A stretch of 64,000 bases of DNA from Nocardioides marinus. GTDB lineage: Bacteria > Pseudomonadota > Alphaproteobacteria > Rhodobacterales > Rhodobacteraceae. A program made the position numbers and the translations under genes. Positions 20,531 through 32,660 of this stretch are shown here, in pieces; the first letter of the stretch is position 1, and every line of letters begins with the position of its first letter. The DNA lies in NCBI GenBank assembly GCA_019801415.1, contig JAHVJD010000006.1, forward strand, positions 124,001 to 188,000, written 5' to 3'. Below the pieces are notes generated by a model, which saw only the letters and a program-made list of their open reading frames with translations, ran no database searches and was not told the origin of the DNA.

Positions 20531-21340
20531 TCACAGATCTCGATTCGTTTTTGAAAACCCCTGGCCCATCATCCGTTCGAGCTCTTGCACGGTTTCACGC
20601 AGTTTTGGGCCGACCTCGGTACGCATCCGGGGCACGGACAGCATTTCGGGCAGGGCGCCGCAGGTGAAGATCACCGGCTCGCTCAGGTCGCGGGAATAGA
20701 ACGGGGAGGCCACCGCGTGGATGTTGGAGGCAAAGTATTCATCGGGATCGGTGACGACGAAACCTGTGGTCACAAGCTGATTGTGCGCCGTGCGGCGAAT
20801 TTCCGTTGCGCGCTCGCGGGTCAGGCCGCGGTCGCCATCTGCCGCGGTCACGATCTGATCGAACCCTTCTTCGGAGGTCGAGGCCAGCAGTGCATGGCCG
20901 GAGGATGTTCCGTTGAATGGCAGCCGATGCCCGACTTCAAGCCAGAGCGAGGCAACCCCCCGTGGCCGCCATGTCTTGACGATCAGCAGCTTGCCGTCGT
21001 CTCGCACCAGCAACAGGGCAAGGGTGCCTGTCTCATCCGCCAGCCGTTGCATCAGCGGCGATGACAGATCCACAAAGGAGATCGATGCGCTTGCCATGTT
21101 GCCGAGCGCCAGCAACGCGGGGCCGGGGCGATAGCGGTCATGGCGCCGCGCATGGGTGAGATAGCCGAGCTTTTGCAAGGTGAAGGTCAGCCGCGACACC
21201 GTGGATTTGGGAATACCGGTACGCTCCGAGATATCGGCATTGCCCAGGCCATCGTCGGATGGCCGGAATGCCCGCAAGACGCTCAATCCGCGCGCCAGTG
21301 TGGTCGCGAACCTTCTATCGGTTTCAATCTCGTCGGGCAT
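20531..21340 (-). CDS. IclR-family transcriptional regulator
   Basis: About 269 residues. The N-terminal winged helix is visible in NADISERTGIPKSTVSRLTFTL (about residues 35-57). The C-terminal effector domain shows GTSSGHALLAS and a late FTCGALPEM. I take the ATG at 21340 (AGGA five bases upstream); the frame extends to 21355 without a site. It stands between the TRAP transporter genes and the beta-oxidation genes on the same strand. It is the likely local regulator, with candidate sites at 20504-20522 and 24366-24384. The effector is probably the transported acid or its CoA ester. Confidence 0.88.
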   Translation of the reverse strand: MPDEIETDRRFATTLARGLSVLRAFRPSDDGLGNADISERTGIPKSTVSRLTFTLQKLGYLTHARRHDRYRPGPALLALGNMASASISFVDLSSPLMQRLADETGTLALLLVRDDGKLLIVKTWRPRGVASLWLEVGHRLPFNGTSSGHALLASTSEEGFDQIVTAADGDRGLTRERATEIRRTAHNQLVTTGFVVTDPDEYFASNIHAVASPFYSRDLSEPVIFTCGALPEMLSVPRMRTEVGPKLRETVQELERMMGQGFSKTNRDL

Positions 21341-21369
21341 AGTGTTCCTCATCACCTTGTTATCCCGGT

Positions 21370-22707
21370 CTACATCGAGTTCGGGATCAGCAGCGAAATG
21401 ACCGGGAAGGCAATGATCAGGATCAGAACGATCACGTCAACTGTCAAAAATCGCAGGATTCCCGAGAATATTCTGTCGATCGACACGTCCTTGCCCACAA
21501 CGTTTGCGATGACGAACACATTCAATCCAACCGGCGGCGTGATCAGACCGATCTCTAGCAGCTTGATGACAACGACGCCGAACCAGATCAGGTCGAAGCC
21601 GTAATTTTCCACCAGCGGGATCATCAGCGGCAAGGTCAGCACCATGATGCCGATGGGATCCAGGAACATGCCAAGCACCAGGTAGATCACCGCGATGGCC
21701 GCCAGCAGCATGACTGGCGAAAGCTGCGCGTCTGTCACGGCGCTGACGATGCTCGGGGCGACCCCGGTCAAGGCGATAAAGGCGACAAAGATCTTGGCCG
21801 CGGCGGCAATCAGGAAAATGCTGGCGGTCTGAATGCAGGTTTCGCGCAAGGACTCGATCACTCCGCGGAGATCCAGCTTGCCTTGCGCGAAACCGATGGC
21901 GACTGCTGCGGATACGCAGACCGCAGCCGCCTCGGTCGCCGTGAAAATGCCGCCATAGATACCGCCAACAATGATAACGAAGAGGCCAATCGCCGGCCAG
22001 GAATCCAACGCGGCCCGGCCCCGGTCCCGCATCGTGATCTGCCCTTCGAACCTCGGCGCCGCTTCTGGTGTCCGGTGCACCCAGAGGAAGATGACCAGAA
22101 CGAAACCCAGCAATGAAATGAGGCCGGGCAGGATGCCTGCGAGGAACAGGGCGCTGATAGAGGTTTCGGTGAAAATCCCGTAGATGATGAAAAGGACAGA
22201 AGGCGGGATGAGCGATCCGAGCGTCCCGCCCGCGGCGACGCTGGCAGTGGCAAGCCGCTTGTCATAGCCCATGCGCAGCATCTCTGGAGAACAGATCCGC
22301 CCCATGGTGGAGGCACAGGCGATGGACGATCCGGTGATCGCGGAAAACCCGCCGCAGCCGACAACCGAGGCCATCGCGACACCACCGGGCACACTCGCCA
22401 GCCACACGCGGGCAGCTTGATAGATCTTCGTCGTGATCTCGGCGCGATAGGCAATGTGGCCAAGCGCGATGAACAGGGGGATCATGGACAGATCGTAGGA
22501 ATGGATCAGGTCGAAGGAATTGGAAAAAACCAATGACGTCGTGGGTTTCAGCGCTCGTTCAGGTGCGAAGGTACCGGTGCGAAACGCAAAGATAACAAAG
22601 GTGCCGACTGTGGCGACTCCGGCAAGTGCGAAGGCGATGGGTACCCTGACCGCAAGCAAGCCGATGACACAGGCGAAGGCGACAATGCCGATGACGGTGC
22701 CGTCCAT
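21370..22707 (-). CDS. dctM: TRAP transporter large permease (DctM)
   Basis: A 445-residue membrane protein with about 12 hydrophobic segments. Family marks are ITGSSIACASTMGRI, AAGGTLGSLIPPSVLFIIYG, FLDPIGIMVLTLP and LITPPVGLNVFV. It forms the sodium-coupled translocation unit of a tripartite carboxylate importer together with DctQ and the periplasmic DctP. Its start overlaps the dctQ stop (TGATG). The operon context suggests a carboxylate later degraded by beta-oxidation. Confidence 0.93.
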   Translation of the reverse strand: MDGTVIGIVAFACVIGLLAVRVPIAFALAGVATVGTFVIFAFRTGTFAPERALKPTTSLVFSNSFDLIHSYDLSMIPLFIALGHIAYRAEITTKIYQAARVWLASVPGGVAMASVVGCGGFSAITGSSIACASTMGRICSPEMLRMGYDKRLATASVAAGGTLGSLIPPSVLFIIYGIFTETSISALFLAGILPGLISLLGFVLVIFLWVHRTPEAAPRFEGQITMRDRGRAALDSWPAIGLFVIIVGGIYGGIFTATEAAAVCVSAAVAIGFAQGKLDLRGVIESLRETCIQTASIFLIAAAAKIFVAFIALTGVAPSIVSAVTDAQLSPVMLLAAIAVIYLVLGMFLDPIGIMVLTLPLMIPLVENYGFDLIWFGVVVIKLLEIGLITPPVGLNVFVIANVVGKDVSIDRIFSGILRFLTVDVIVLILIIAFPVISLLIPNSM

Positions 22708-23222
22708 CAGACGCTCTCCTCATGTTCATGAGCCGGGGAAATCACGCTGCCACCGGCGCGGATCGTGCGAAGGTCGCCGATCACCATCAGCAGCAGCCGA
22801 AGCCAGCAGAAGGAGATCCCGACAAGGAAAACCACACGGCCCGGCCATTTCGGCAGGTTGAGTTGACCAAAGAAGAAGGCGCCGCTTTCGACGGTATGGG
22901 CAACCTCGCGCCAACCCGCGTAGATCAGGGGGGAGAGGGCAAAGAGACCAAAGGCGCTTCCACCGACGAGCAGCCAGTCCTGCACGCGGAGGGGCATCAT
23001 TTTGCTGAGAAACTCCACCACGATATGCGCCCGGTCCAGTGTCGCTACTGCCAGGGGCAAAACGATGGCGGCGACCATCAGTTCGCGCACGATCACAATG
23101 GTGTCCGGGATGCCGGAATTGAATGCGGCCCGCAGAAATACGCTGCCTGTGATCAACACGCCAAGGCTGACAACGGCGACAACCGCCAAGTCGAGCAATA
23201 GCTTTTCAACGCGACGCAACAT
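22707..23222 (-). CDS. dctQ: TRAP transporter small permease (DctQ)
   Basis: A 171-residue protein with four predicted membrane helices (starting LLLDLAVVAVVSLGVLI) and the DctQ-type segment AFNSGIPDTIVIVRELMV, then ATLDRAHIVVEFL. It joins DctP and DctM in the TRAP complex. It is separated from dctP by 78 bases that contain a weak CCGCGG...CCGCGG hairpin, as often seen after binding-protein genes. Confidence 0.88.
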   Translation of the reverse strand: MLRRVEKLLLDLAVVAVVSLGVLITGSVFLRAAFNSGIPDTIVIVRELMVAAIVLPLAVATLDRAHIVVEFLSKMMPLRVQDWLLVGGSAFGLFALSPLIYAGWREVAHTVESGAFFFGQLNLPKWPGRVVFLVGISFCWLRLLLMVIGDLRTIRAGGSVISPAHEHEESV

Positions 23223-23300
23223 CGGTCAACTCCGTCGAAATATCATGAAGGGAAGTGCCGCGGCGCCGGTCTTGCACCGCGGAGATATGTGCAGCTGGTC

Positions 23301-24350
23301 TCAGCCGCGCGCCCAGGGATAGCCTTGGCTGTCACGCTCTTCGGCATATTTTTCCAGAAGCGTGCGGTATTGTTCCAGCAGCGACGTGCCGTCGAGCCCC
23401 GCCGCATTCGCACGTTCGACCCATTCATCAACGTATTGCTTGCCTTGCTGAACCAGCTTGTCGCGCTCTTCCGCTGGCAAGTCGATGACCTCGACACCGG
23501 CGTCCTTCATTGTTTCCAAGGCCGCGTCATTGGCCGCGGTAATCAGTTCACCCAGCTTGTCGGCCATCGCGATACCGGCATCAGCCATCGCGGACTGGGT
23601 CTCGGCGTCGAGGGAATCGTACACATCCTTGTTCATGAAGATTCCCAAGGCACCGACCTGACCCCAATTGAGCAGGGTGTAGCTCGTCATGACTTCCTGT
23701 TGTTTCAGCGCGGCAACGGCGTAGGAGTAGCCTTGCGAACAATCCAGCAACCCGGTGTCGAGACCCTGATAGGCATCGTAAATCGGCATCGCGACCATGT
23801 TTGCACCAAAATCGCGGAAGGTGTCGCCATATGCGCCGACGCCACGGACTTTCAGACCGGAAATATCCTCGACCGTGCGAATTGCCACGTCCTTGCACGC
23901 AATGTTCACTGCCGAGGTTGTGAAAGTGCCGATGTATACGAGGTTCTGGTCCGCCAGGCTTTTCGTGATCGCGTCGGAGGTCCGCATCAACTCGTCCGTC
24001 GCGCGCATTCCGACCCAGGCATCCTCATTGCGCATCGGCAGGTCGGCGAAGCTGTAGCTCAGCATTTCCTGCGGGAAATACACTGCGATGACCGTGCCGA
24101 GGTCAGCCACTCCGTCCGCAATGGATTGTGCGGCGGCATTGGCCTTGAACAGCGCTCCCCCCCATTGAATGTCGATATTTACTTCGCCGTTTGTACGGGC
24201 CGTTACGTCGTCGGCAAAGGACTGCAATGCTGCGGCCCGGGCTCCCCGATTCGGGCCGGCTTCTCCCAGAATCAGCGTTGTGTCGGCGCTCGCGATTGTC
24301 GCGGCTGCCAAGCAGAGTGCCGCCGCGGTGGATGCTAGCAGGGCTTTCAT
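23301..24350 (-). CDS. dctP: TRAP transporter solute-binding protein (DctP)
   Basis: A 349-residue periplasmic binding protein with a Sec signal (MKALLASTAAALCLAAATIASA). DctP-family marks include GEAGPNRGARAAALQSF, KVRGVGAYGDTFRDFGANMVAMP (the conserved Arg that pairs with the ligand carboxylate) and QGLDTGLLDCSQGY. A GGGAGGAG site precedes the ATG. It opens the operon, and an IclR-type box lies immediately upstream. The ligand is likely a carboxylate; mid-chain dicarboxylate is the best guess from the downstream genes. Confidence 0.92.
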   Translation of the reverse strand: MKALLASTAAALCLAAATIASADTTLILGEAGPNRGARAAALQSFADDVTARTNGEVNIDIQWGGALFKANAAAQSIADGVADLGTVIAVYFPQEMLSYSFADLPMRNEDAWVGMRATDELMRTSDAITKSLADQNLVYIGTFTTSAVNIACKDVAIRTVEDISGLKVRGVGAYGDTFRDFGANMVAMPIYDAYQGLDTGLLDCSQGYSYAVAALKQQEVMTSYTLLNWGQVGALGIFMNKDVYDSLDAETQSAMADAGIAMADKLGELITAANDAALETMKDAGVEVIDLPAEERDKLVQQGKQYVDEWVERANAAGLDGTSLLEQYRTLLEKYAEERDSQGYPWARG

Positions 24351-24772: not shown

Positions 24773-26443
24773 TTAAGAACCGCGCTCCGGGAAGGCCGTT
24801 GGCTCTCCGTGTGACGCGCGGATACTGTCATTCAAAATCGCCTTGATCAGGGCAACGCACATCAGCACCATCACCAACGAGAACGGCAGCGCGCCGATCA
24901 CCATCGCGGTTCGGATCGCATCCAGGCCGCCGACCAGCAACAGTGCTGCCACCACGAGGCTCAGCGCTACACCCCAAAAGAGGATATGCGGGCGGGCTTT
25001 GGGACCTTCGTCGCCTGCGGCGTTGATCGTATTCACGATCAGCACCGCGGAATCGGCAGTGGTGACTAGGTAGGTCATCAGGAGAACCACGATCGCCACG
25101 GCCATGATCCACCCGAGCATGTCTCCGAGCATGTAATTGGTCATGGCAAAGATCTTGTCCCCATCGGAGGCACCAAAGATCGTGCCGTTGGCCCCACCGG
25201 ATATCTCCAGTTCAATCGCCGTTCCGCCAGCAAAGGCAAACCAGACAAAGCATATGAGTGCCGGAACGATGACCGCGCCAAGGACAAACTCGCGGATCGT
25301 GCGCCCGCGCGAGATCCGCGCCAGGAACAGGCCCACAAAGGGCGCGAAGGCCACCCACCAAGCCCAGTAGAACACCGACCAGCCGCCCTGCCAGGCTTCC
25401 AGTTTGTCGGTCACACCGCCGCTGCCGTCGCCCTTGTAGATGGTGAAGAGCAGGTCAGGTAGCGCCAGAACATAGTGCCACAGGCCAATGAAAAGCGCGT
25501 AGATGCCAAAACCGGTAGCACCAAAGACGAGGAAGAAAACCAGTAGGAAAATCGACAGTCCCATGTTGAGATTTGACAGCCATTTGATGCCTTTGCCCAC
25601 TCCGGAAAGCGCCGACAACGTGGACGCACCCATGATGATCACCAACGCCACGATGATACCGGTGGCCGAGGCGGTGCCTTCGCCGTTTAGCAACCAGCCG
25701 CCGACGCCGATGCGTGCCATGCCAGCCACGAATTGCTCGACCCCGAAGCCCAGCGTTTGAGCCACTCCCAAGATCGTGGCGATTACCGCAACAATGTCGA
25801 CCAGATGTCCGGTCCAGCCGGACAGGCGGCTTCCGAACAAGGGGGCCAACGCCGAACGGATGGTCAGCGGCAGCCCGCGACGGTAGGCGAAAAAGCCCAA
25901 TGCCAGCCCGGCAATTGCATAAGAAGCCCATGCCGAGAAGCCCCAGTGCAGGTAGGACCATTTGTAGGCGTTGAGAATGTTGTCCGGGCCTGCCGCGGTA
26001 GCAAAGCCCTGAATGACATCCGGGTTGTTCTGGAAGTGGTAGACAGGCTCGGCCACGGCCCATGTAAGCATGCCGACCCCGATCCCGGCGCCGAACATCA
26101 TGGAGAACCAGGAAAACCTCGAGAATTCCGGTTTGTCGTCATAGCGGCCGATTTTCAATCGCCCTGCCGCAGGCCAGAGCGCCAAACCGATGCAGACAAG
26201 CACGAAAGCTGCCATTACCAGAATGTACCAAGAAGCGAAGTGAGTCAGGATGAAGCTGTTGAACCCGGCCAAAACCGAGCCCGCGTGTTCCGGAAAGGCC
26301 ACCGCCCAGAGCACCAACCCGCCGACCGCCAGTTTGCCGGTCACCGTGACGTCGACATTGAAGCCGGAATAAAACCCTTTCTCAGCCGTCTTGATCGGGA
26401 GGACTCTTAAGGGCTCCCTTATCCTCCTTCTAATATTGGACAT
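24773..26443 (-). CDS. BCCT-family betaine/choline/carnitine-type transporter
   Basis: A 556-residue transporter with about 12 hydrophobic segments. The BCCT signature is visible as YWAWWVAFAPFVGLFLARIS then SRGRTIREF. The earlier segment FSWFSMMFGAGIGVGMLTWAV is also typical of the family. It imports quaternary ammonium compounds or their sulfonium/sulfonate analogues with sodium or protons. A strong AGGGAGGAAC site precedes the ATG. It lies just downstream of the [2Fe-2S] reductase gene on the same strand, pointing to catabolism rather than osmoprotection. Confidence 0.93.
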   Translation of the reverse strand: MSNIRRRIREPLRVLPIKTAEKGFYSGFNVDVTVTGKLAVGGLVLWAVAFPEHAGSVLAGFNSFILTHFASWYILVMAAFVLVCIGLALWPAAGRLKIGRYDDKPEFSRFSWFSMMFGAGIGVGMLTWAVAEPVYHFQNNPDVIQGFATAAGPDNILNAYKWSYLHWGFSAWASYAIAGLALGFFAYRRGLPLTIRSALAPLFGSRLSGWTGHLVDIVAVIATILGVAQTLGFGVEQFVAGMARIGVGGWLLNGEGTASATGIIVALVIIMGASTLSALSGVGKGIKWLSNLNMGLSIFLLVFFLVFGATGFGIYALFIGLWHYVLALPDLLFTIYKGDGSGGVTDKLEAWQGGWSVFYWAWWVAFAPFVGLFLARISRGRTIREFVLGAVIVPALICFVWFAFAGGTAIELEISGGANGTIFGASDGDKIFAMTNYMLGDMLGWIMAVAIVVLLMTYLVTTADSAVLIVNTINAAGDEGPKARPHILFWGVALSLVVAALLLVGGLDAIRTAMVIGALPFSLVMVLMCVALIKAILNDSIRASHGEPTAFPERGS

Positions 26444-26550
26444 ATTTGTTCCTCCCTTATGGTTCTAGGTGCGTGGTTTGACCATCTTCGTGCCGTTCAA
26501 GGGGCTGTGCCGCGTCGCCTCCGCTCTGAGCGGGCAAGCGGTGTGACTTC

Positions 26551-27612
26551 TCACGCGTCGAGTGCTACTGCGCCTTTGGGCCAGCTGCAGCAGGCCAGTA
26601 CATAGCCAGCCTCGGCCTCGTCTGGCTGCAGCCCGCCCATGTCCTGCATTTCGACCTGCCCTTGGGTCAGCACCACCTTGCAGTTGCCGCAGACCCCTTG
26701 CTGGCAGGCGGAATCGATCCAGACACCGGCATTCAGTGCCGCTTCCAGCAGCGTTTCGCCCTGGGCGCAGTGGCCGTTCTTGCCGCTGAGGGAAAAGAAC
26801 ACCTCGCCGCCGGTGCCGGAGGCTTCTTCGATAGTGATCTTCTCGCCGAAGCTCTCTTCGTGGACCGCCGCAAAGGGAATCTTGTCGGCAACCGCACGGG
26901 CCGCTTTCATGAACCCCTCCGGGCCGCACATGAAGATGCTGCGCTCAGCGTGGTCCGGCACCAGCCTCTGCATCAGCTCCGCCGATATCTGCCCTGTCTC
27001 ACCCGTAAATGAAGGGTGATCCGCCGAGTCCACTACCAGATGCACGGTCACGTTCCGGAACCGCTTGCCCAGGAACTCCAACTGGTCACGGAAGATGATG
27101 TCTTTCGGGGAGCGGGCAAAATGTACAAAGACGACATCCTTGGGAAGGGTCACATCGGTGATGTACTGCAGCATCGACATCACCGGGGTGACGCCAGAGC
27201 CGCCCGACAGCAGAAGCGGTTTTTCGCAGGGGATGTCTATCCAATTGAAGCTGCCGGAGATATCGGCAATTTCCACTTCGGCGCCAGGCCGAACTTCATC
27301 GTTCAGGTAGTTCGACACCAGCCCGCCCGGCACCCGCTTGACGGTTACCTGGATATTGTGCGGCCGGGTCGGGGTGGAGGAAATCGAATAGGCCCGGACA
27401 TGGGCCTTACCTGCGATTTGGAAGCTGAAGGTGACATACTGTCCGGGTTTGAAGTCAAAGCTGCGGCTCTGACTGTCTTCGAAGACAAAGGTCTTGCTGT
27501 CGTGCGTCTCATCGATCACGGCCTTGCAGATCAGGGTTGCCGGCCCGCCTGAATAACAGGGTTGAGAGTTTGCTGAGCTCAGTGAAAACGGGCTATCGGT
27601 AGCGACGAGCAT
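26551..27612 (-). CDS. FAD/[2Fe-2S] ferredoxin-NADH reductase of oxygenase systems (GbcB/CntB-like)
   Basis: A 353-residue electron-transfer protein. An FNR-type FAD domain (RAYSISSTP at about 93, then GGLVSNYLND) and NAD domain (LLLSGGSGVTPVMSM, IFMCGPEGFM) are followed by a plant-type [2Fe-2S] domain. That domain has cysteines in DSACQQGVCGNC and a fourth near LACCS. The order FAD-NAD-[2Fe-2S] is that of the reductases of glycine betaine, carnitine and stachydrine monooxygenases. No large Rieske oxygenase is encoded nearby. Its natural partners here are the Rieske ferredoxin and the amidohydrolase-fold protein across the LysR gene. Confidence 0.88.
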   Translation of the reverse strand: MLVATDSPFSLSSANSQPCYSGGPATLICKAVIDETHDSKTFVFEDSQSRSFDFKPGQYVTFSFQIAGKAHVRAYSISSTPTRPHNIQVTVKRVPGGLVSNYLNDEVRPGAEVEIADISGSFNWIDIPCEKPLLLSGGSGVTPVMSMLQYITDVTLPKDVVFVHFARSPKDIIFRDQLEFLGKRFRNVTVHLVVDSADHPSFTGETGQISAELMQRLVPDHAERSIFMCGPEGFMKAARAVADKIPFAAVHEESFGEKITIEEASGTGGEVFFSLSGKNGHCAQGETLLEAALNAGVWIDSACQQGVCGNCKVVLTQGQVEMQDMGGLQPDEAEAGYVLACCSWPKGAVALDA

Positions 27613-27690
27613 GGTGCGGGAACCTCCACGATTGAATTCGTGGGAAGATACCCGGCACCCCGCCCGGTAAAATGCACCAGAAATGCCTCT

Positions 27691-28566
27691 TTAATCGAAA
27701 CTTTCGATTATTCTGGCCTGAATCAGATTCTGGAAGAGCAGAACGGCCTGCGCGACAAGCGGATCGTGGCGTTTGCGGTTGTGAACAATGGAATACAAAG
27801 GCTGCGGTATGACGGGTGCTCCTTCCACCAGCTGCAGACCGGGAATGGTCTCCATCAGGCTGGGGGCGGACAGGCTGGGAAAATAGGCTGTGCCGCCGTC
27901 TGCCTTTAGAAAGCCGGACGCCAGATCGTCACTGCCAACCACTGTCGGAACATGCAGCAGATTTGGAAACAACTCGTCGTGCTGACGGTCGAAGTAGGAG
28001 GTGTAGGCCACCTTGATGTATCGGGTCCAGTCGACTTCAATCAACCTGCAGCAGTCGGTCGACATCATCACGTAATTTTCAGCGCCAAATTCCGCCACGT
28101 GCACGTCGGGAAACTGCTGCGGTGCAAAAACGATTCCCACGTCGGTTTCACCGGTCAGGACATCACGTTGGATCTGCTGCGAAAAATTTGCCTCCAGATA
28201 AAGATCCAGCTTGGGCACCTGCCCACGTATCTGCTTTGCCCAATCCACCAGGACTGGCTGGGCCAGCGTGAACTGAACTGAAACCCGAAGGCGCGGCCGC
28301 GCCAAACCACTACCGGCGGAGACGTCCCGCTTGGCCAGGCTCCATGCAGCCAGAAGGGATCGGCAATGTGTCTCAAACCGCCGCCCGGCTGCTGTCGGAT
28401 CAGCCCCTCCACGGCCGCGCTCGAACAGCCGCGTGGCCAGTTCGTCCTCCAGCTGCCGGATCCGGGCGCTGACGGTCGATTGGGTGACGTTCAGCCTTTC
28501 GGCGGTGCGGTTGAAGTTCCGGGTTTCCAGAACATCCATGTAGGTGAGGAGCAGCTGACGATTCAT
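27691..28566 (-). CDS. LysR-family transcriptional regulator
   Basis: A 291-residue LysR regulator with an N-terminal HTH (MDVLETRNFNRTAERLNVTQSTVSARIRQLE in residues 10-40) and a periplasmic-binding-like effector domain. It is divergent from the amidohydrolase-Rieske-BetB operon and upstream of the reductase gene. An AATC-N9-GATT element lies just before its ATG, and a related perfect palindrome overlaps its own 3' end. It therefore likely controls both flanks. Confidence 0.92.
   Translation of the reverse strand: MNRQLLLTYMDVLETRNFNRTAERLNVTQSTVSARIRQLEDELATRLFERGRGGADPTAAGRRFETHCRSLLAAWSLAKRDVSAGSGLARPRLRVSVQFTLAQPVLVDWAKQIRGQVPKLDLYLEANFSQQIQRDVLTGETDVGIVFAPQQFPDVHVAEFGAENYVMMSTDCCRLIEVDWTRYIKVAYTSYFDRQHDELFPNLLHVPTVVGSDDLASGFLKADGGTAYFPSLSAPSLMETIPGLQLVEGAPVIPQPLYSIVHNRKRHDPLVAQAVLLFQNLIQARIIESFD
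27692..27710. promoter_or_regulatory. 19-bp perfect palindrome upstream of the reductase gene
   Basis: TAATCGAAACTTTCGATTA has 9-bp perfect arms around one base. It overlaps the last codons of lysR and lies about 80 bases upstream of the reductase start. It fits the T-N11-A form of LysR sites and resembles the element at 28569-28585. It could alternatively be a small transcript-ending hairpin, but no T-run follows. Confidence 0.5.
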
Positions 28567-28568
28567 TC

Positions 28569-28585
28569 AATCACTATTTCCGATT
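28569..28585. promoter_or_regulatory. Candidate LysR site in the lysR/amidohydrolase divergent region
   Basis: AATCACTATTTCCGATT shares 12 of 17 positions with the palindrome core AATCGAAACTTTCGATT at 27693-27709, including both AATC and GATT ends. It lies directly upstream of the lysR ATG, the usual place for an autoregulatory site that also activates the divergent operon. Confidence 0.45.
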
Positions 28586-28692
28586 AAAGGAGGTGTATCA
28601 ATTGCATTTATTCGTCCTCGATCAGTTTTTATCACTGCGCCTCAGAGACTGCCCACAGCCCGTCCGGCTTGGACAAGCGAGAGGAGAAGCAC

Positions 28693-29775
28693 ATGTTTAT
28701 CGTCGATTGCGACTGCCACAATTACTGGTGCAGCGCCACGGTTCTGGAACCCTACATGGAAGGCCTGTTCAAGGACATGTTCGTTCGCGGAGAACGGACT
28801 GGTCCGCGCGGCGCGTTCCCGCATGGCCACCGCCCCTGGTTCCATCCCGAAGGCTTCGCCCGTCATGACGTCAACCCGGTGGAGGAAGATGACAACTACC
28901 TGATCATGAAGGCAAAGCACCTCGATAAGTACGATATCGACGTGGCGATTCTGACTGGTGACGAACCGATCGAAGCCTCCACGCTGGCCAATCCTTATTA
29001 CGCCAACGCGCTGTGCAAGGCCTACAATGATTACCTGATCGACTATTGGCTGCCAAAGGACGACCGGTTCTGGGGCTCGATCGTGGTGGCGCCGCAGGAT
29101 CCGCATCTGGCCGCCGCTGAAATCCGTCGCCTGGGCGGCCACCCGCGCATTGTACAGGTTCTGGTCAGCCACGGCGCGGCACGTCCCTATGGTGATCCAT
29201 TCTATCACCCGATCTACGAGGCCTGCGCCGAAATGGGCCTGCCCTTCGCCATGCACTTGGGCGGGCAAGGGGGCATCAACTCCACCCCGATTGGTGCCGG
29301 CCCTTCAACCTTTTTCTGGGAAACCCACGCAATCCTGCCGCAGACCGCGATGACGCATATGGCGAGCCTGATTGCCAACGGCGTGTTCGAAAAGTGGCCC
29401 TCGTTGAAAGTGGTCGTGATCGAATGCGGCGTGGCCTGGGTGCCGTCGGTGCTGTGGCGCCTGGACGCCAATTACAAGGCGCTGCGCAAGGAAACGCCGT
29501 GGCTGAAGCGCCTGCCGTCGGAATATTTCAAGGACCACTTCCGCTTTTCGACCCAGCCACTCGAACAGCCGGAAAACATCCAGCACCTCTGGGCAGCGCT
29601 GGAAGCAATGGACGGCGAGAACACTCTGATGTTCGCCTCGGACTACCCGCATTGGGACTACGACGACGTCAACAAGCTGCACGTGCCGCCGGCCTGGCGC
29701 GAGAAGATCTTCGGCCTCAATGCGCTCGACGTCTACACCCGCCTGCCGCGCCCGGCGGCGCAGGCCGCTGAATAA
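28693..29775 (+). CDS. Amidohydrolase-fold (PF04909-type) metalloprotein
   Basis: About 360 residues. The start at 28693 follows an AGGAG six bases upstream. The TIM-barrel metal sites are seen as DCDCHNYW (D-x-D-x-H rather than HxH) at the N-terminus, His in FAMHLGG, Glu in VVIECGVAW where many relatives have His, and Asp in FASDYPHWD. Classic members are hydrolases or decarboxylases such as ACMSD. Some amidohydrolase-fold enzymes are non-heme iron oxygenases. Here it is 12 bases from a Rieske ferredoxin gene and near an FNR reductase with no other terminal oxygenase, so I suspect an oxidative role. The substrate is unknown. Confidence 0.85.
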   Translation: MFIVDCDCHNYWCSATVLEPYMEGLFKDMFVRGERTGPRGAFPHGHRPWFHPEGFARHDVNPVEEDDNYLIMKAKHLDKYDIDVAILTGDEPIEASTLANPYYANALCKAYNDYLIDYWLPKDDRFWGSIVVAPQDPHLAAAEIRRLGGHPRIVQVLVSHGAARPYGDPFYHPIYEACAEMGLPFAMHLGGQGGINSTPIGAGPSTFFWETHAILPQTAMTHMASLIANGVFEKWPSLKVVVIECGVAWVPSVLWRLDANYKALRKETPWLKRLPSEYFKDHFRFSTQPLEQPENIQHLWAALEAMDGENTLMFASDYPHWDYDDVNKLHVPPAWREKIFGLNALDVYTRLPRPAAQAAE

Positions 29776-29787
29776 GGAGACCCGGAG

Positions 29788-30141
29788 ATGACAACCAAGC
29801 ATTTTGCCTGCAAGGCCGATGAGGTTCCTCAGGACGCGGCCAAGATCGTCACCGTCTCCAACATGCCGATCGGCGTGTTCCGGCTGGAGGACGGTTTCCA
29901 TGCGCTGCTCAATATCTGCCCGCACAAGGGTGCGGCACTGTGCGAGGGGCCAGTCTGCGGCACCACCAGGCAGACTGATTCAACCGAATTCGTTTATGAC
30001 CGGGCGGGCGAGATTGTCCGCTGCGCCTGGCACGGCTGGGAGTTCGACATCCGCTCGGGCGAATTCCTGGTGGATCCTTCGGTAAAGACCCGCCGCTTCG
30101 ACGTCTCGGTCGAAGGCAGCGATCTTTACGTTCACATCTGA
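29788..30141 (+). CDS. Small Rieske [2Fe-2S] ferredoxin
   Basis: A 117-residue single-domain Rieske protein. Cluster ligands are CPH (about residues 45-47) and CAWH (about 83-86) in [15 protein letters not shown]. The stretch between the two ligand boxes is about 36 residues, longer than in ordinary ferredoxins, and holds two further cysteines (ALCEGPVCG). There is no catalytic oxygenase domain, so it is an electron carrier. It lies between the amidohydrolase-fold gene and the BetB-like gene with short gaps. It could link the FNR reductase (26551-27612) to that amidohydrolase-fold protein. Confidence 0.88.
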
Positions 30142-30158
30142 CCGTTAGGAGCGCCAGC

Positions 30159-31619
30159 ATGACGCAATTCCCGTGCCAGTCCGAAGCCTCCCACTATATT
30201 GGCGGGGCCTACCTGGAAGACCCCGCTGGCACTCCGTTCGACTGCATTAACCCGGCAACGGGTGAGGTGATAGCCCGTTTGAATGGTGCATCCCCGTCCA
30301 TGATCGAACGGGCCGTGGCCTGCGCACGCGATGCGCAGGCCATTTGGGCCACGACACCGCCTGCCGAACGCGGTCGCGTGCTGCGCCGGGCTGCAGATAT
30401 CATCCGGGACCGCAATGAGGAGCTGTCGGTGCTGGAAACCCTGAACACCGGCAAGCCGATTTCCGAGACCCGTGTGGCCGATGCCGCCAGTGGTGCGGAT
30501 TGTCTCGAATATTTCGGTTGTCAGGCTGCTACACTGACCGCCGACCACATTCCGCTGGGCGGCGACTGGGCCTATACCATCCGCGAGCCGCTGGGCGTCT
30601 GCCTCGGCATCGGCGCCTGGAACTATCCGATCCAGATCGCCTGCTGGAAGGCCGCTCCGGCACTGGCCTGCGGCAACGCGATGATTTTCAAACCGTCCGA
30701 ACTCACGCCGCTTACAGCGCTGAAACTGGCGGAAATCCTGTCCGAAGCCGGTGCGCCGCCGGGCCTGTTCAACGTGGTGCAGGGGCTGCGGGAGACCGGT
30801 GCCGCGCTGACCGCACATCCCGGCATTGCCAAAGTGTCGCTGACCGGTTCGGTGCCCACCGGCCGCGCGGTGGCCGCCGCTGCCGCCGCGCAGATGAAAC
30901 ACCTCACAATGGAGCTTGGTGGCAAGTCCCCATTGCTGGTCTTTGATGACGCAGACATCGACAGCGCAGTTTCCGCTGCCATTCTCGGCAATTTCTATTC
31001 CACCGGTCAGATCTGCTCCAACGCAACCCGCGTGTTCGTGCAGAAGGGGATCAAGGAGGCTTTCCTCGCGCGTTTGGTAGAGCGCACCGCGAAGATCCGG
31101 ATCGGCGACCCGATGGAACCTGAAACCCAGATCGGCCCTCTGGTGAGCGCCGGGCAAGCCGAAAGGGTGGAGGGGTATATCGCTGCCGCGGAACAGGAAG
31201 GGGCGATCCGCGTGACACCACCGCTGCCTTTGCCCGACGGCCGCGCCTGGGTCAGCCCGGTGGTCTTTGCCGGTGTGACTGATGACATGGCCATCGCCCG
31301 CGAGGAAATCTTCGGACCCGTTATGTCGGTGCTGGATTTCGACAGCGAAGACGAGGCTGTCGCCCGCGCCAACAGCACTGAGTTCGGTCTCGCTGCCGGT
31401 GTCTTCACCCGCGATCTGTCCCGCGGACACCGTGTTGTGTCGCGCCTCAGGGCGGGCACCTGCTGGATCAACGCGTATAACCTGACCCCGGTTGAAATGC
31501 CCTTTGGTGGTGTTGGGCAATCCGGTATCGGGCGGGAAAACGCCCGTGCTGCGATCGAACACTTTAGCCAGCTGAAGTCCGTCTACGTTGGCATGTCTCC
31601 CTTGGAAAACGACTACTGA
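30159..31619 (+). CDS. Betaine aldehyde dehydrogenase-like enzyme (BetB type)
   Basis: A 486-residue ALDH, the length of BetB. Catalytic Glu is in MELGGKSP (about 252) and Cys in [10 protein letters not shown] (about 286). The C-terminal stretch [17 protein letters not shown] then [20 protein letters not shown] closely follows bacterial BetB. That strongly suggests an (amino)aldehyde such as betaine aldehyde as substrate. With a BCCT importer nearby and no GMC choline dehydrogenase here, betaine aldehyde would have to arise from another precursor, produced by the electron-transfer system of this locus. Confidence 0.88.
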
Positions 31620-31631
31620 ACAGAGGCTGCA

Positions 31632-32660
31632 ATGCTGGCACAGCTGAACCGCACCGCCTTTGGGCGGCCGTCATCCATATTGTCGACTGCTTGCGCCATT
31701 TACCCCGGCATCGCGCTGGCGGCGGTTGTCGGGTTGGCCGCGTTGTTCCTGTCGGAACATTACGGTGCGCCGGTCATGCTGCTGGCACTGCTGATCGGCA
31801 TGGTGTTCAATCCGCTGGCGGAAGAGGCTGCCGTTGCCCCGGGCATCGGCTTCAGCTCCAAAGCCTTGCTTCGCGCCGGGGTGGCTCTGCTAGGGGTGCG
31901 GGTCAGTTTTAGTGACATCGCCTCGCTCGGCGTGGCGGGTTTCAGTGCTATTGCCGGGCTTCTGGGCGGCACGATCCTGCTGGGTCTGCTGCTGTCGCGC
32001 CGCGACTGGCAATCTGGCGTACTGACCGGCGGTGCGGTGGCAATCTGCGGTGCCTCGGCTGCGCTGGCGATTTCGGCCTGCCTTCCCAAGGGAAAGGCAT
32101 TGGAGCAAGAGACGCTGTTCACAGTAGTTGCGGTCACGGCTCTGTCGACACTGGCGATGATTTTCTATCCAGTTGCGCTAGCGCAGCTTGGATTCAATGA
32201 GGCTCAAACGGCCTTTGTCCTGGGGGCCTCAATACATGACGTGGCGCAGGTCGTGGGCGCGGGGCTGACGGTTTCAGAAGAAACTGCGGAGCTGGCCACG
32301 CTGGTCAAAATGGTGAGGGTGAGCCTGCTGCCGCTGGTGCTGTGCATCCTGGTTCTGACCGTCTCGGCCACAGGCCGGAAGGAGAGGACACACAGGATCC
32401 CAGTGCCGGGGTTCCTGATAGTTTTTTTTGCCCTGGCGCTATTGGCGAACATCGGAGTGTTGACTGTAGCCATGGCAGATTTTGCCGCAGCAGTGTCGAA
32501 GTGGCTGCTCATCATCGCGATATCGGCTCTCGGAGCCAAGACATCGTTGCGGAGCTTGACCACCGTCGGAGGGTCAAAGCTGATGCGGATAGGCGGCCTG
32601 ACATTGGTTCTGTTCGGTGCCTCGGCTCTCATTGCGCAGCTGTTGCCCGGCCTTTCCTGA
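31632..32660 (+). CDS. YeiH-family membrane protein (putative sulfate/sulfite exporter)
   Basis: A 342-residue protein with about ten hydrophobic segments. It matches the YeiH/UPF0324 family through GISFSSKALLRAGVALLGVRVS-like GFSSKALLRAGVALLGVR, GGAVAICGASAALAI, and FVLGASIHDVAQVVGAG. The family is annotated as putative sulfate exporter; YeiH in enterobacteria is linked to sulfite response. It begins 12 bases after the BetB-like gene and so belongs to the same operon. That hints that sulfite is released from the substrate. Confidence 0.85.
   Translation: MLAQLNRTAFGRPSSILSTACAIYPGIALAAVVGLAALFLSEHYGAPVMLLALLIGMVFNPLAEEAAVAPGIGFSSKALLRAGVALLGVRVSFSDIASLGVAGFSAIAGLLGGTILLGLLLSRRDWQSGVLTGGAVAICGASAALAISACLPKGKALEQETLFTVVAVTALSTLAMIFYPVALAQLGFNEAQTAFVLGASIHDVAQVVGAGLTVSEETAELATLVKMVRVSLLPLVLCILVLTVSATGRKERTHRIPVPGFLIVFFALALLANIGVLTVAMADFAAAVSKWLLIIAISALGAKTSLRSLTTVGGSKLMRIGGLTLVLFGASALIAQLLPGLS

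Follow-up and report, generated by a model that had tools for sequence, protein, structure and literature searches.

Amidohydrolase-related dinuclear oxygenases (AROs) are PF04909 proteins defined by a dinuclear Fe2 or Mn/Fe site together with a neighbouring small Rieske protein (PMC10811679; PMC10401708; PMC7782822). In one described system, the 2-aminoisobutyrate monooxygenase AibH1H2-AibG-AibF of Rhodococcus wratislaviensis, the PF04909 hydroxylase is accompanied by a small Rieske protein, a flavin/[2Fe-2S] reductase, a permease and an aldehyde dehydrogenase; its substrate is an amino acid, and the available text of the reports names no sulfur gene in the cluster (PMC7782822; PMC10401708). 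The solved relatives SfbO, 8sm7, 8sm8 and 8sm9 also have a Rieske neighbour, and no native substrate is given for them (PMC10811679); the same is reported for most PF04909 oxygenases, among them 555 uncharacterised AibH2-like proteins (PMC10401708). Here we describe a seven-gene cluster around a PF04909 protein, located in a stretch of 64,000 nucleotides (the window; positions 124001–188000 of contig C6) in a 3.89-Mb genome assigned to the Rhodobacteraceae. The cluster shares with the Aib system the hydroxylase family, the small Rieske protein, the reductase, an importer and an aldehyde dehydrogenase, but has one PF04909 gene where AibH1H2 is a heteromer of two PF04909 subunits. From sequence and predicted structure it very probably encodes a three-component, O2-type ARO monooxygenase with its Rieske protein and reductase, and we put forward, tentatively, that a trimethylammonium ethanesulfonate, most likely taurine betaine, is taken up and oxidatively desulfonated by its products to give betaine aldehyde and sulfite.

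Two further comparisons frame this proposal. The systems for glycine betaine and carnitine, GbcAB and CntAB, share with the cluster a GbcB-like reductase and the quaternary-ammonium theme, but they have a Rieske oxygenase alpha subunit, a protein some 400 residues long that contains a mononuclear iron domain, where the window cluster has a ferredoxin of 117 residues. TauD, a 2-oxoglutarate enzyme, hydroxylates next to a sulfonate and thereby releases sulfite, and the reaction proposed here resembles it in both steps.

The seven genes had been recognised in a sequence-only reading of the window, and all were found open and full-length where that reading had placed them, with family assignments that agree (Table 1). 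They form two divergent groups 126 bases apart: the minus strand carries LysR-FNR-BCCT, the plus strand PF04909-Rieske-BetB-YeiH. The gaps between the plus-strand genes are only 12, 17 and 12 bases, which makes it likely that these four form an operon. PF04909 and PF03601 each have a single match in the genome, and both lie inside the cluster. The best NCBIfam match of the reductase is the glycine betaine monooxygenase reductase GbcB (303.5 bits, below the cut-off of 500), and the protein would act as electron donor to the Rieske ferredoxin.

Table 1. Genes of the cluster, with positions in the window
Gene product	Position	Strand	Family evidence
BCCT-family importer (betaine/carnitine/choline type)	24773..26443	-	PF02028 485.6 bits
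FAD/[2Fe-2S] NAD(P)H reductase (FNR), GbcB-like	26551..27612	-	PF00970, PF00175, PF00111
LysR-type regulator, divergent from the oxygenase gene	27691..28566	-	PF00126, PF03466
Predicted oxygenase component, PF04909 ARO	28693..29775	+	PF04909 183.6 bits
Small Rieske ferredoxin, 117 residues	29788..30141	+	PF00355 54.4 bits; CPH at 44, CAWH at 79
Betaine aldehyde dehydrogenase BetB, second BetB of the genome	30159..31619	+	NF009725 751.1 bits
YeiH/PF03601 transporter, likely sulfite (or sulfate) exporter	31632..32660	+	PF03601 186.7 bits

The assignment of the PF04909 protein to the AROs follows from several lines of evidence. Its best matches among solved structures (phmmer) are 8sm7 (302 bits), SfbO (8sm6, 263), 8sm9 (221), 8sm8 (209) and AibH2 (6m1w_B, 172), and the decarboxylases, at no more than 81 bits, rank below these together with the oxygenase PtmU3 (71). 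When its AlphaFold model (mean pLDDT 86.7) was searched with Foldseek, ranks 1–20 were all ARO chains, AibH1 partner subunits included, and SfbO, 8sm7, 8sm8 and 8sm9 were 33–44% identical to it. Homologues were collected by an alignment-based scan of genome contigs (best 80 of 101 retained), which gave 79 loci with AROs 44–98% identical to that of the window. An alignment of 44 rows was made from the window and 43 of these loci; L148, L149 and L152 as well as 33 close copies and fragments lie outside it. The acidic residue D342 of AibH2, conserved in binuclear members only (PMC7782822), aligns with D322 of the window protein, and D7, H9, H188, E244, D317, H320 and D322 are identical in all 44 rows. 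These residues probably include the metal ligands, three histidines and three carboxylates. The fold and nearest relatives, the acidic residue, and the adjacent reductase and small Rieske protein (CxH...CxxH) are thus those of the ARO class, and by analogy with its characterised members the protein is predicted to hydroxylate with O2 at a dinuclear Fe2 or Mn/Fe cofactor. The sequence-only reading had listed this gene as an amidohydrolase-fold metalloprotein; the gene stands, and its role now appears to be that of the oxygenase itself.

Three other roles were considered and set aside. A plain amidohydrolase or decarboxylase does not agree with the nearest structures, which are oxygenases, or with the presence of the binuclear acidic residue. 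A Rieske oxygenase of the GbcA, CntA or plant choline monooxygenase type would need an alpha subunit, and the 117-residue ferredoxin is the sole Rieske protein of the cluster. Desulfonation of the TauD type has no 2-oxoglutarate-dependent gene among the seven; the parallel to TauD drawn in the sequence-only reading is therefore retained for the hydroxylation chemistry and given up for the enzyme, which is a PF04909 ARO. In two Pseudomonas loci (L108, 5092–7672, minus strand; L172, 5117–7685, minus strand) the reductase gene is immediately followed, on its own strand, by the genes of a metal ABC importer. The best matches of its substrate-binding protein are the Mn/Fe protein EfaA and the manganese protein MntC, both below their cut-offs, and an importer of this kind would suit an oxygenase with a Mn/Fe cofactor.

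The neighbourhood of the ARO was compared in a flank of about 10 kb, a limit that was chosen and within which many contigs end. Homologues of the Rieske protein were found in 74 of the 79 loci, of the LysR regulator in 53 and of FNR in 43, followed by HD-domain proteins and DppA-type substrate-binding proteins (19 each), BCCT and BetB-like proteins (at least 60% identity; 9 each), YeiH (8), choline/betaine substrate-binding proteins (7), MttB-like and DMGDH-like proteins (6 each) and GBBH-like proteins (2). Among the 15 loci with an ARO at least 84% identical to that of the window, a cut that was also chosen, Rieske, LysR and FNR homologues are near in all 15, BCCT in 8, BetB in 7 (one broken, one partial) and YeiH in 5 (one broken); seven of the BCCT proteins are 69–87% identical to the window's and the eighth (L090) 36%. 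The grouping of the seven genes exceeds chance. Co-occurrence, for which the sequence-only reading had called, is thus frequent for Rieske, LysR and FNR, and confined to a minority of loci for YeiH and BetB.

The sulfur clue is YeiH. In Salmonella yeiH is reported as the main sulfite-resistance gene, with a strongly sulfite-sensitive mutant, and a mutant in its regulator yeiE has a defect with sulfite and none with sulfate (PMC12880088). For the related SuyZ, sulfite export has been argued (PMC11582611). Both are PF03601 transporters with a link to a sulfur oxyanion, which for SuyZ lies in the catabolism of sulfonates; the window YeiH adjoins an oxygenase for a presumed trimethylammonium compound. 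A YeiH gene no more than about 10 kb from the ARO is present in L088, L089 (in pieces), L098, L099, L101, L108, L123 and L163, so that the pairing occurs, besides the window, in roseobacters, Sinorhizobium/Ensifer, Pseudomonas, and metagenome-assembled genomes (MAGs) of Pelagibacteraceae and Rhodospirillales. In the Pelagibacteraceae MAG (L101) 62 bases separate the end of YeiH from the ARO start codon that follows it, and a search of this genome for choline sulfatase at E <= 1e-100 gave no match. PF03601 was searched in 36 ARO genomes, which carry 0 to 2 full-length copies each. At this genomic density 0.24 YeiH genes are expected in the bases covered by the 79 loci, against the eight observed; the Poisson probability is about 2e-10 when the loci are treated as independent, which they are not, and about 5e-6 or 1e-4 when five or four lineages, chosen by eye, are counted instead. 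A count by genome, 9 of 36 against 0.14 expected, was not used, since the genomes were picked after the neighbour survey and include the window and all eight linked loci. The suggestion that a sulfite-type exporter belongs with this oxygenase is borne out by the recurrence.

The recurrence does not appear to trace to one linked YeiH lineage. In a tree of 35 YeiH rows (40 before removal of five second copies of linked rows), with 10 linked rows including the window and plasmid copies and with an unlinked row, G942:C12, that had no locus, the linked rows do not form one clade; there are 7 label changes, at least 4 of them forced by well-supported branches, with gains and losses indistinguishable. 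When labels were shuffled, 43 of 500 shuffles gave a number as low, and the linked label is thus not clearly more clustered than shuffled ones. The linked YeiH of Pseudomonas taeanensis is the sister of the unlinked copy in its own genome, and the window and Leisingera copies form a separate branch; the Pelagibacteraceae YeiH sits on a very long branch, which makes its position unsure. Since linked YeiHs are not one clade, the pairing appears to have recurred, and it looks as if YeiH has been recruited to the ARO repeatedly. A search for BetC and BetA covered 15 of these 36 genomes (nine linked and six others); BetC was over its cut-off in 14 and BetA in all 15. Among the 14 genomes with BetC, a YeiH at most 10 kb away from it is present in that of Ensifer aridi alone, and there inside the ARO locus. 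YeiH therefore goes with the oxygenase and not with choline sulfatase.

The class of the substrate is suggested by transporters and by BetB. A BCCT or a choline/betaine-type substrate-binding protein is found near the ARO in 16 of the 79 loci: the protein is ChoX beside the ARO of Pseudomonas taeanensis (391.2 bits against an NCBIfam cut-off of 379.05) and OpuAC in Sinorhizobium meliloti. On a Mesorhizobium plasmid a glycine-betaine-type ABC system, an MttB-family protein and two FAD oxidoreductases lie downstream, and some Mesorhizobium loci hold glycine-betaine-type ABC, MttB-like and FAD demethylase-like genes. As different transporter families surround one oxygenase, the substrate would be a trimethylammonium compound, and its product would feed into the metabolism of glycine betaine. 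The cluster's own BetB supports an aldehyde product. It passes the NF009725 cut-off of 593, just misses that of TIGR01804 (661.6 against 668.6) and scores 292 against the SafD model (cut-off 700). It is 64% identical to the other BetB of the genome, on contig C2, which adjoins BetC (899 bits), BetA and a BetI-like gene, and choline and choline sulfate thus have canonical enzymes in this genome.

In the proposed pathway BCCT would import taurine betaine, and electrons from NAD(P)H would reach the PF04909 oxygenase, with its dinuclear site (Fe2 or Mn/Fe), by way of the reductase and then the Rieske ferredoxin. The oxygenase would hydroxylate the sulfonate-bearing carbon, and the resulting alpha-hydroxysulfonate would collapse to betaine aldehyde and sulfite, the former to be oxidised to glycine betaine by BetB and the latter to be exported by YeiH. 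The gene content, the enzyme class as read from sequence and predicted fold, and the recurrence of YeiH are observed; the electron path, the substrate, the site of hydroxylation and the direction of YeiH transport are what the pathway would add to them. Its appeal is that one reaction yielding both betaine aldehyde and sulfite explains the importer, the electron chain, BetB and YeiH together, and for this reason the reaction suggested in the sequence-only reading remains the best single one, with the recurrence of YeiH and the dedicated BetB in its favour.

The identity of the substrate is less well placed, and a number of observations weigh against taurine betaine. YeiH is absent from the available flank in 71 of the 79 loci, and from 5 of 9 plasmid loci, that of S. 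meliloti RCAM1115 (L176) among them. Homologous loci do not consistently lack yeiH and betB, a result that the sequence-only reading would have taken as refutation, yet most of the 79 lack both. The window YeiH is above the PF03601 cut-off (24.5) but reaches only 117.4 against 232.6 for TIGR00698. SfbO binds sulfate through R232 and R235; in the window ARO these align with H212 and L215, identical in all 44 rows, so that an SfbO-like sulfate site was sought and its two arginines were found to be absent. Of the other SfbO residues W341 is conserved as W321, and the contacts N67 and Y280 are not safely alignable. A lid motif, FPHGHRPW, is present in 43 of 44 rows and absent from the aligned SfbO and 8sm7, and we propose H44, H46 and R47 of this motif as a candidate anion site; the site falls, however, in a poorly predicted loop of the AlphaFold model (pLDDT below 50 at 36–41 and 43–53). 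SfbO itself is reported to oxidise the carbon on the nitrogen side of its 2-aminoethylsulfonate surrogates (PMC10811679). Finally, 5 of the 79 loci have a choline sulfatase close to the ARO, and in S. meliloti M162 the distance from the ARO to BetI is about 4 kb; choline or choline sulfate therefore has to be weighed as a substrate.

If choline were the substrate, the ARO would be a choline monooxygenase acting on the alcohol carbon to give betaine aldehyde hydrate, and YeiH would export sulfate released by BetC or be incidental. Plants carry out this hydroxylation of choline with an enzyme of the Rieske oxygenase fold. BetB in the operon, the ChoX of Pseudomonas taeanensis, BetI in S. meliloti M162 and the choline sulfatases all agree with such a role, the latter being matched by TIGR03417 in L156 (a Geodermatophilaceae MAG; 712.4 against 433.45) and L133 (899) and recognised by similarity in L134, L157 and L163. 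The step is, however, already covered by BetA and BetC in nearly all ARO genomes searched, and YeiH pairs with the ARO where it is near BetC in a single genome, which makes a choline monooxygenase unlikely. BetB and YeiH would be accounted for at once if the ARO cleaved choline-O-sulfate oxygenolytically at the oxygen-bearing carbon, giving betaine aldehyde and sulfate for export by YeiH. The alkylsulfatase dioxygenase AtsK offers a likeness for cleavage of this hydroxylation type, and the Ensifer aridi locus L163 has choline sulfatase together with a choline-sulfate-type LysR regulator (343 against 324.8). Since the genome already has BetC and Salmonella yeiH is reported to act in sulfite stress (PMC12880088), we regard oxygenolytic cleavage of choline-O-sulfate as decidedly unlikely.

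A carbon-phosphorus compound comes into question through the HD-domain proteins, distantly like PhnZ/TmpB, near the ARO in 19 of the 79 loci, and through a TmpA/GBBH-like gene near it in L107, L108 and L172: the ARO would then be a TmpA-like hydroxylase of 2-(trimethylammonio)ethylphosphonate or a similar compound, with the HD oxygenase found elsewhere as the TmpB-like second step. The seven cluster genes hold neither a 2-oxoglutarate-dependent hydroxylase nor an HD gene, and BetB and YeiH would be left unexplained. HD and YeiH occur together in only 1 of the 79 loci, the HD protein of L162 scores 27–32 bits against PhnZ/TmpB cut-offs of 214–300, and the one HD sequence inspected lacks the YxxE motif described for these enzymes (PMC8177086). 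A phosphonate substrate for the window ARO is accordingly very unlikely, and a true PhnZ or TmpB is not claimed from so weak a match. Very unlikely, too, is N-dealkylation of the kind that SfbO is reported to carry out with MES and PIPES (PMC10811679), by which taurine betaine or a dimethyltaurine would yield an amine and sulfoacetaldehyde, the latter passing to Xsc. The genome does encode Xsc (917 bits against a cut-off of 676), but on another contig, and BetB scores as a betaine aldehyde dehydrogenase (751 against 593) and not as SafD. Desulfonation of taurine betaine to betaine aldehyde and sulfite thus continues to be preferred here.

The clade as a whole is widely distributed. Hosts of the ARO are roseobacters, Sinorhizobium/Ensifer, Mesorhizobium, Pseudomonas, Marinobacterium, a Paenibacillus MAG, Pelagibacteraceae and Rhodospirillales MAGs, Chloroflexota and Actinomycetota, and tblastn against plasmids (E <= 1e-40) gave 94 records, 48 of them from Sinorhizobium, including pSymA of S. 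meliloti 1021. The order in S. meliloti M162 is YeiH-LysR-FNR-ARO-Rieske-BetB-OpuAC substrate-binding protein-hydrolase-BetI, and pSymA of strain 1021 carries YeiH, LysR, FNR, ARO, Rieske, BetB and a betaine-type substrate-binding protein, with no BCCT in the stretch covered. Papers searched for the presumed locus tags of S. meliloti genes gave nothing of use. In the ARO tree eight YeiH-linked and eight HD-linked rows (L163, which has both, was counted as YeiH) lie on opposite sides of one branch (support 90/70), and over all 44 rows the labels change 5 times for YeiH, 4 for HD and 3 for BetB. At 34 positions, two of them with gaps, the AROs of six Mesorhizobium rows of the HD clade are unlike the eight YeiH-linked ones. 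These positions include the loop 199–204, PIGAGP in the window and AIASGP in L124; it is no marker of YeiH because PIG-GP forms occur also in Chloroflexota and Actinomycetota rows that have no YeiH. Other branches of the clade may act on other compounds, perhaps the matching phosphonate, which we offer as a lead.

Several loci deserve mention in their own right. The Ensifer aridi island (L163, 1–6142) has choline sulfatase (truncated where the locus ends), a ChoX-like substrate-binding protein, the choline-sulfate-type LysR regulator and an HD protein next to YeiH and the ARO, and so unites partner genes that are mostly separate in other loci. In an uncultured Pelagimonas (L089, 11550–13000; the same place as L080) BetB and YeiH are fragmented, and the ARO and Rieske genes are open and about 97% identical to those of the window. 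The aldehyde dehydrogenase annotated behind the Rieske gene of Paracoccus seriniphilus (L167) has a length of 192 bases. In an alphaproteobacterial MAG two ARO genes flank one Rieske gene at a contig end (L081, 3–1996; L159, 9989–11984). The AROs of Chloroflexota (L140–L144; 64–66% identical) stand beside MBL-fold, enolase-superfamily MR_MLE and 3-hydroxyisobutyrate-dehydrogenase-like proteins, a gene set that would belong to a different pathway. In Marinobacterium jannaschii (L107, 14235–15449, plus strand) a PF11449 'ArsP_2' heavy-metal exporter (426 bits), which may handle arsenic or manganese, follows the ARO, Rieske and BCCT genes, and one may think of arsenobetaine-like substrates. Downstream of BCCT in the window, on the same strand (20531–24350, minus), are an IclR regulator and a TRAP transporter (DctP 112 bits); as only distant TRAP homologues (32–34%) occur near the ARO of relatives, in 3 of 79 loci, these genes are probably unrelated to the cluster. 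An Rfam scan of the window gave no match, and one of L107, L108, L172 and L101 gave one group II intron.

Taken as a whole, the locus is likely a coherent catabolic cluster around a known but rarely understood type of oxygenase, carrying out a reaction that is likely new, and it gives one ARO clade a short and testable list of substrates. Among the matches listed in a literature search, titles and opening parts of abstracts showed no bacterial catabolic pathway for taurine betaine, a weak negative as most subscription journals lie outside its scope; the compound is reported at high concentration in Madracis corals (PMC5557254). Should taurine betaine be the substrate, the cluster would provide a route from a coral osmolyte to glycine betaine and sulfite, and the oxygenase would represent a new enzyme class for cleavage of the C-S bond. 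It is possible, if rather doubtful, that this is one instance of a widespread and undescribed sulfobetaine pathway in marine roseobacters, SAR11-type bacteria and rhizobial symbiotic plasmids, in which an amidohydrolase-fold oxygenase of the Mn/Fe type serves as a C-S cleaving taurine betaine desulfonase with a dedicated BetB and a YeiH recruited several times. The cluster on pSymA of S. meliloti 1021 brings the reaction within reach of genetics.

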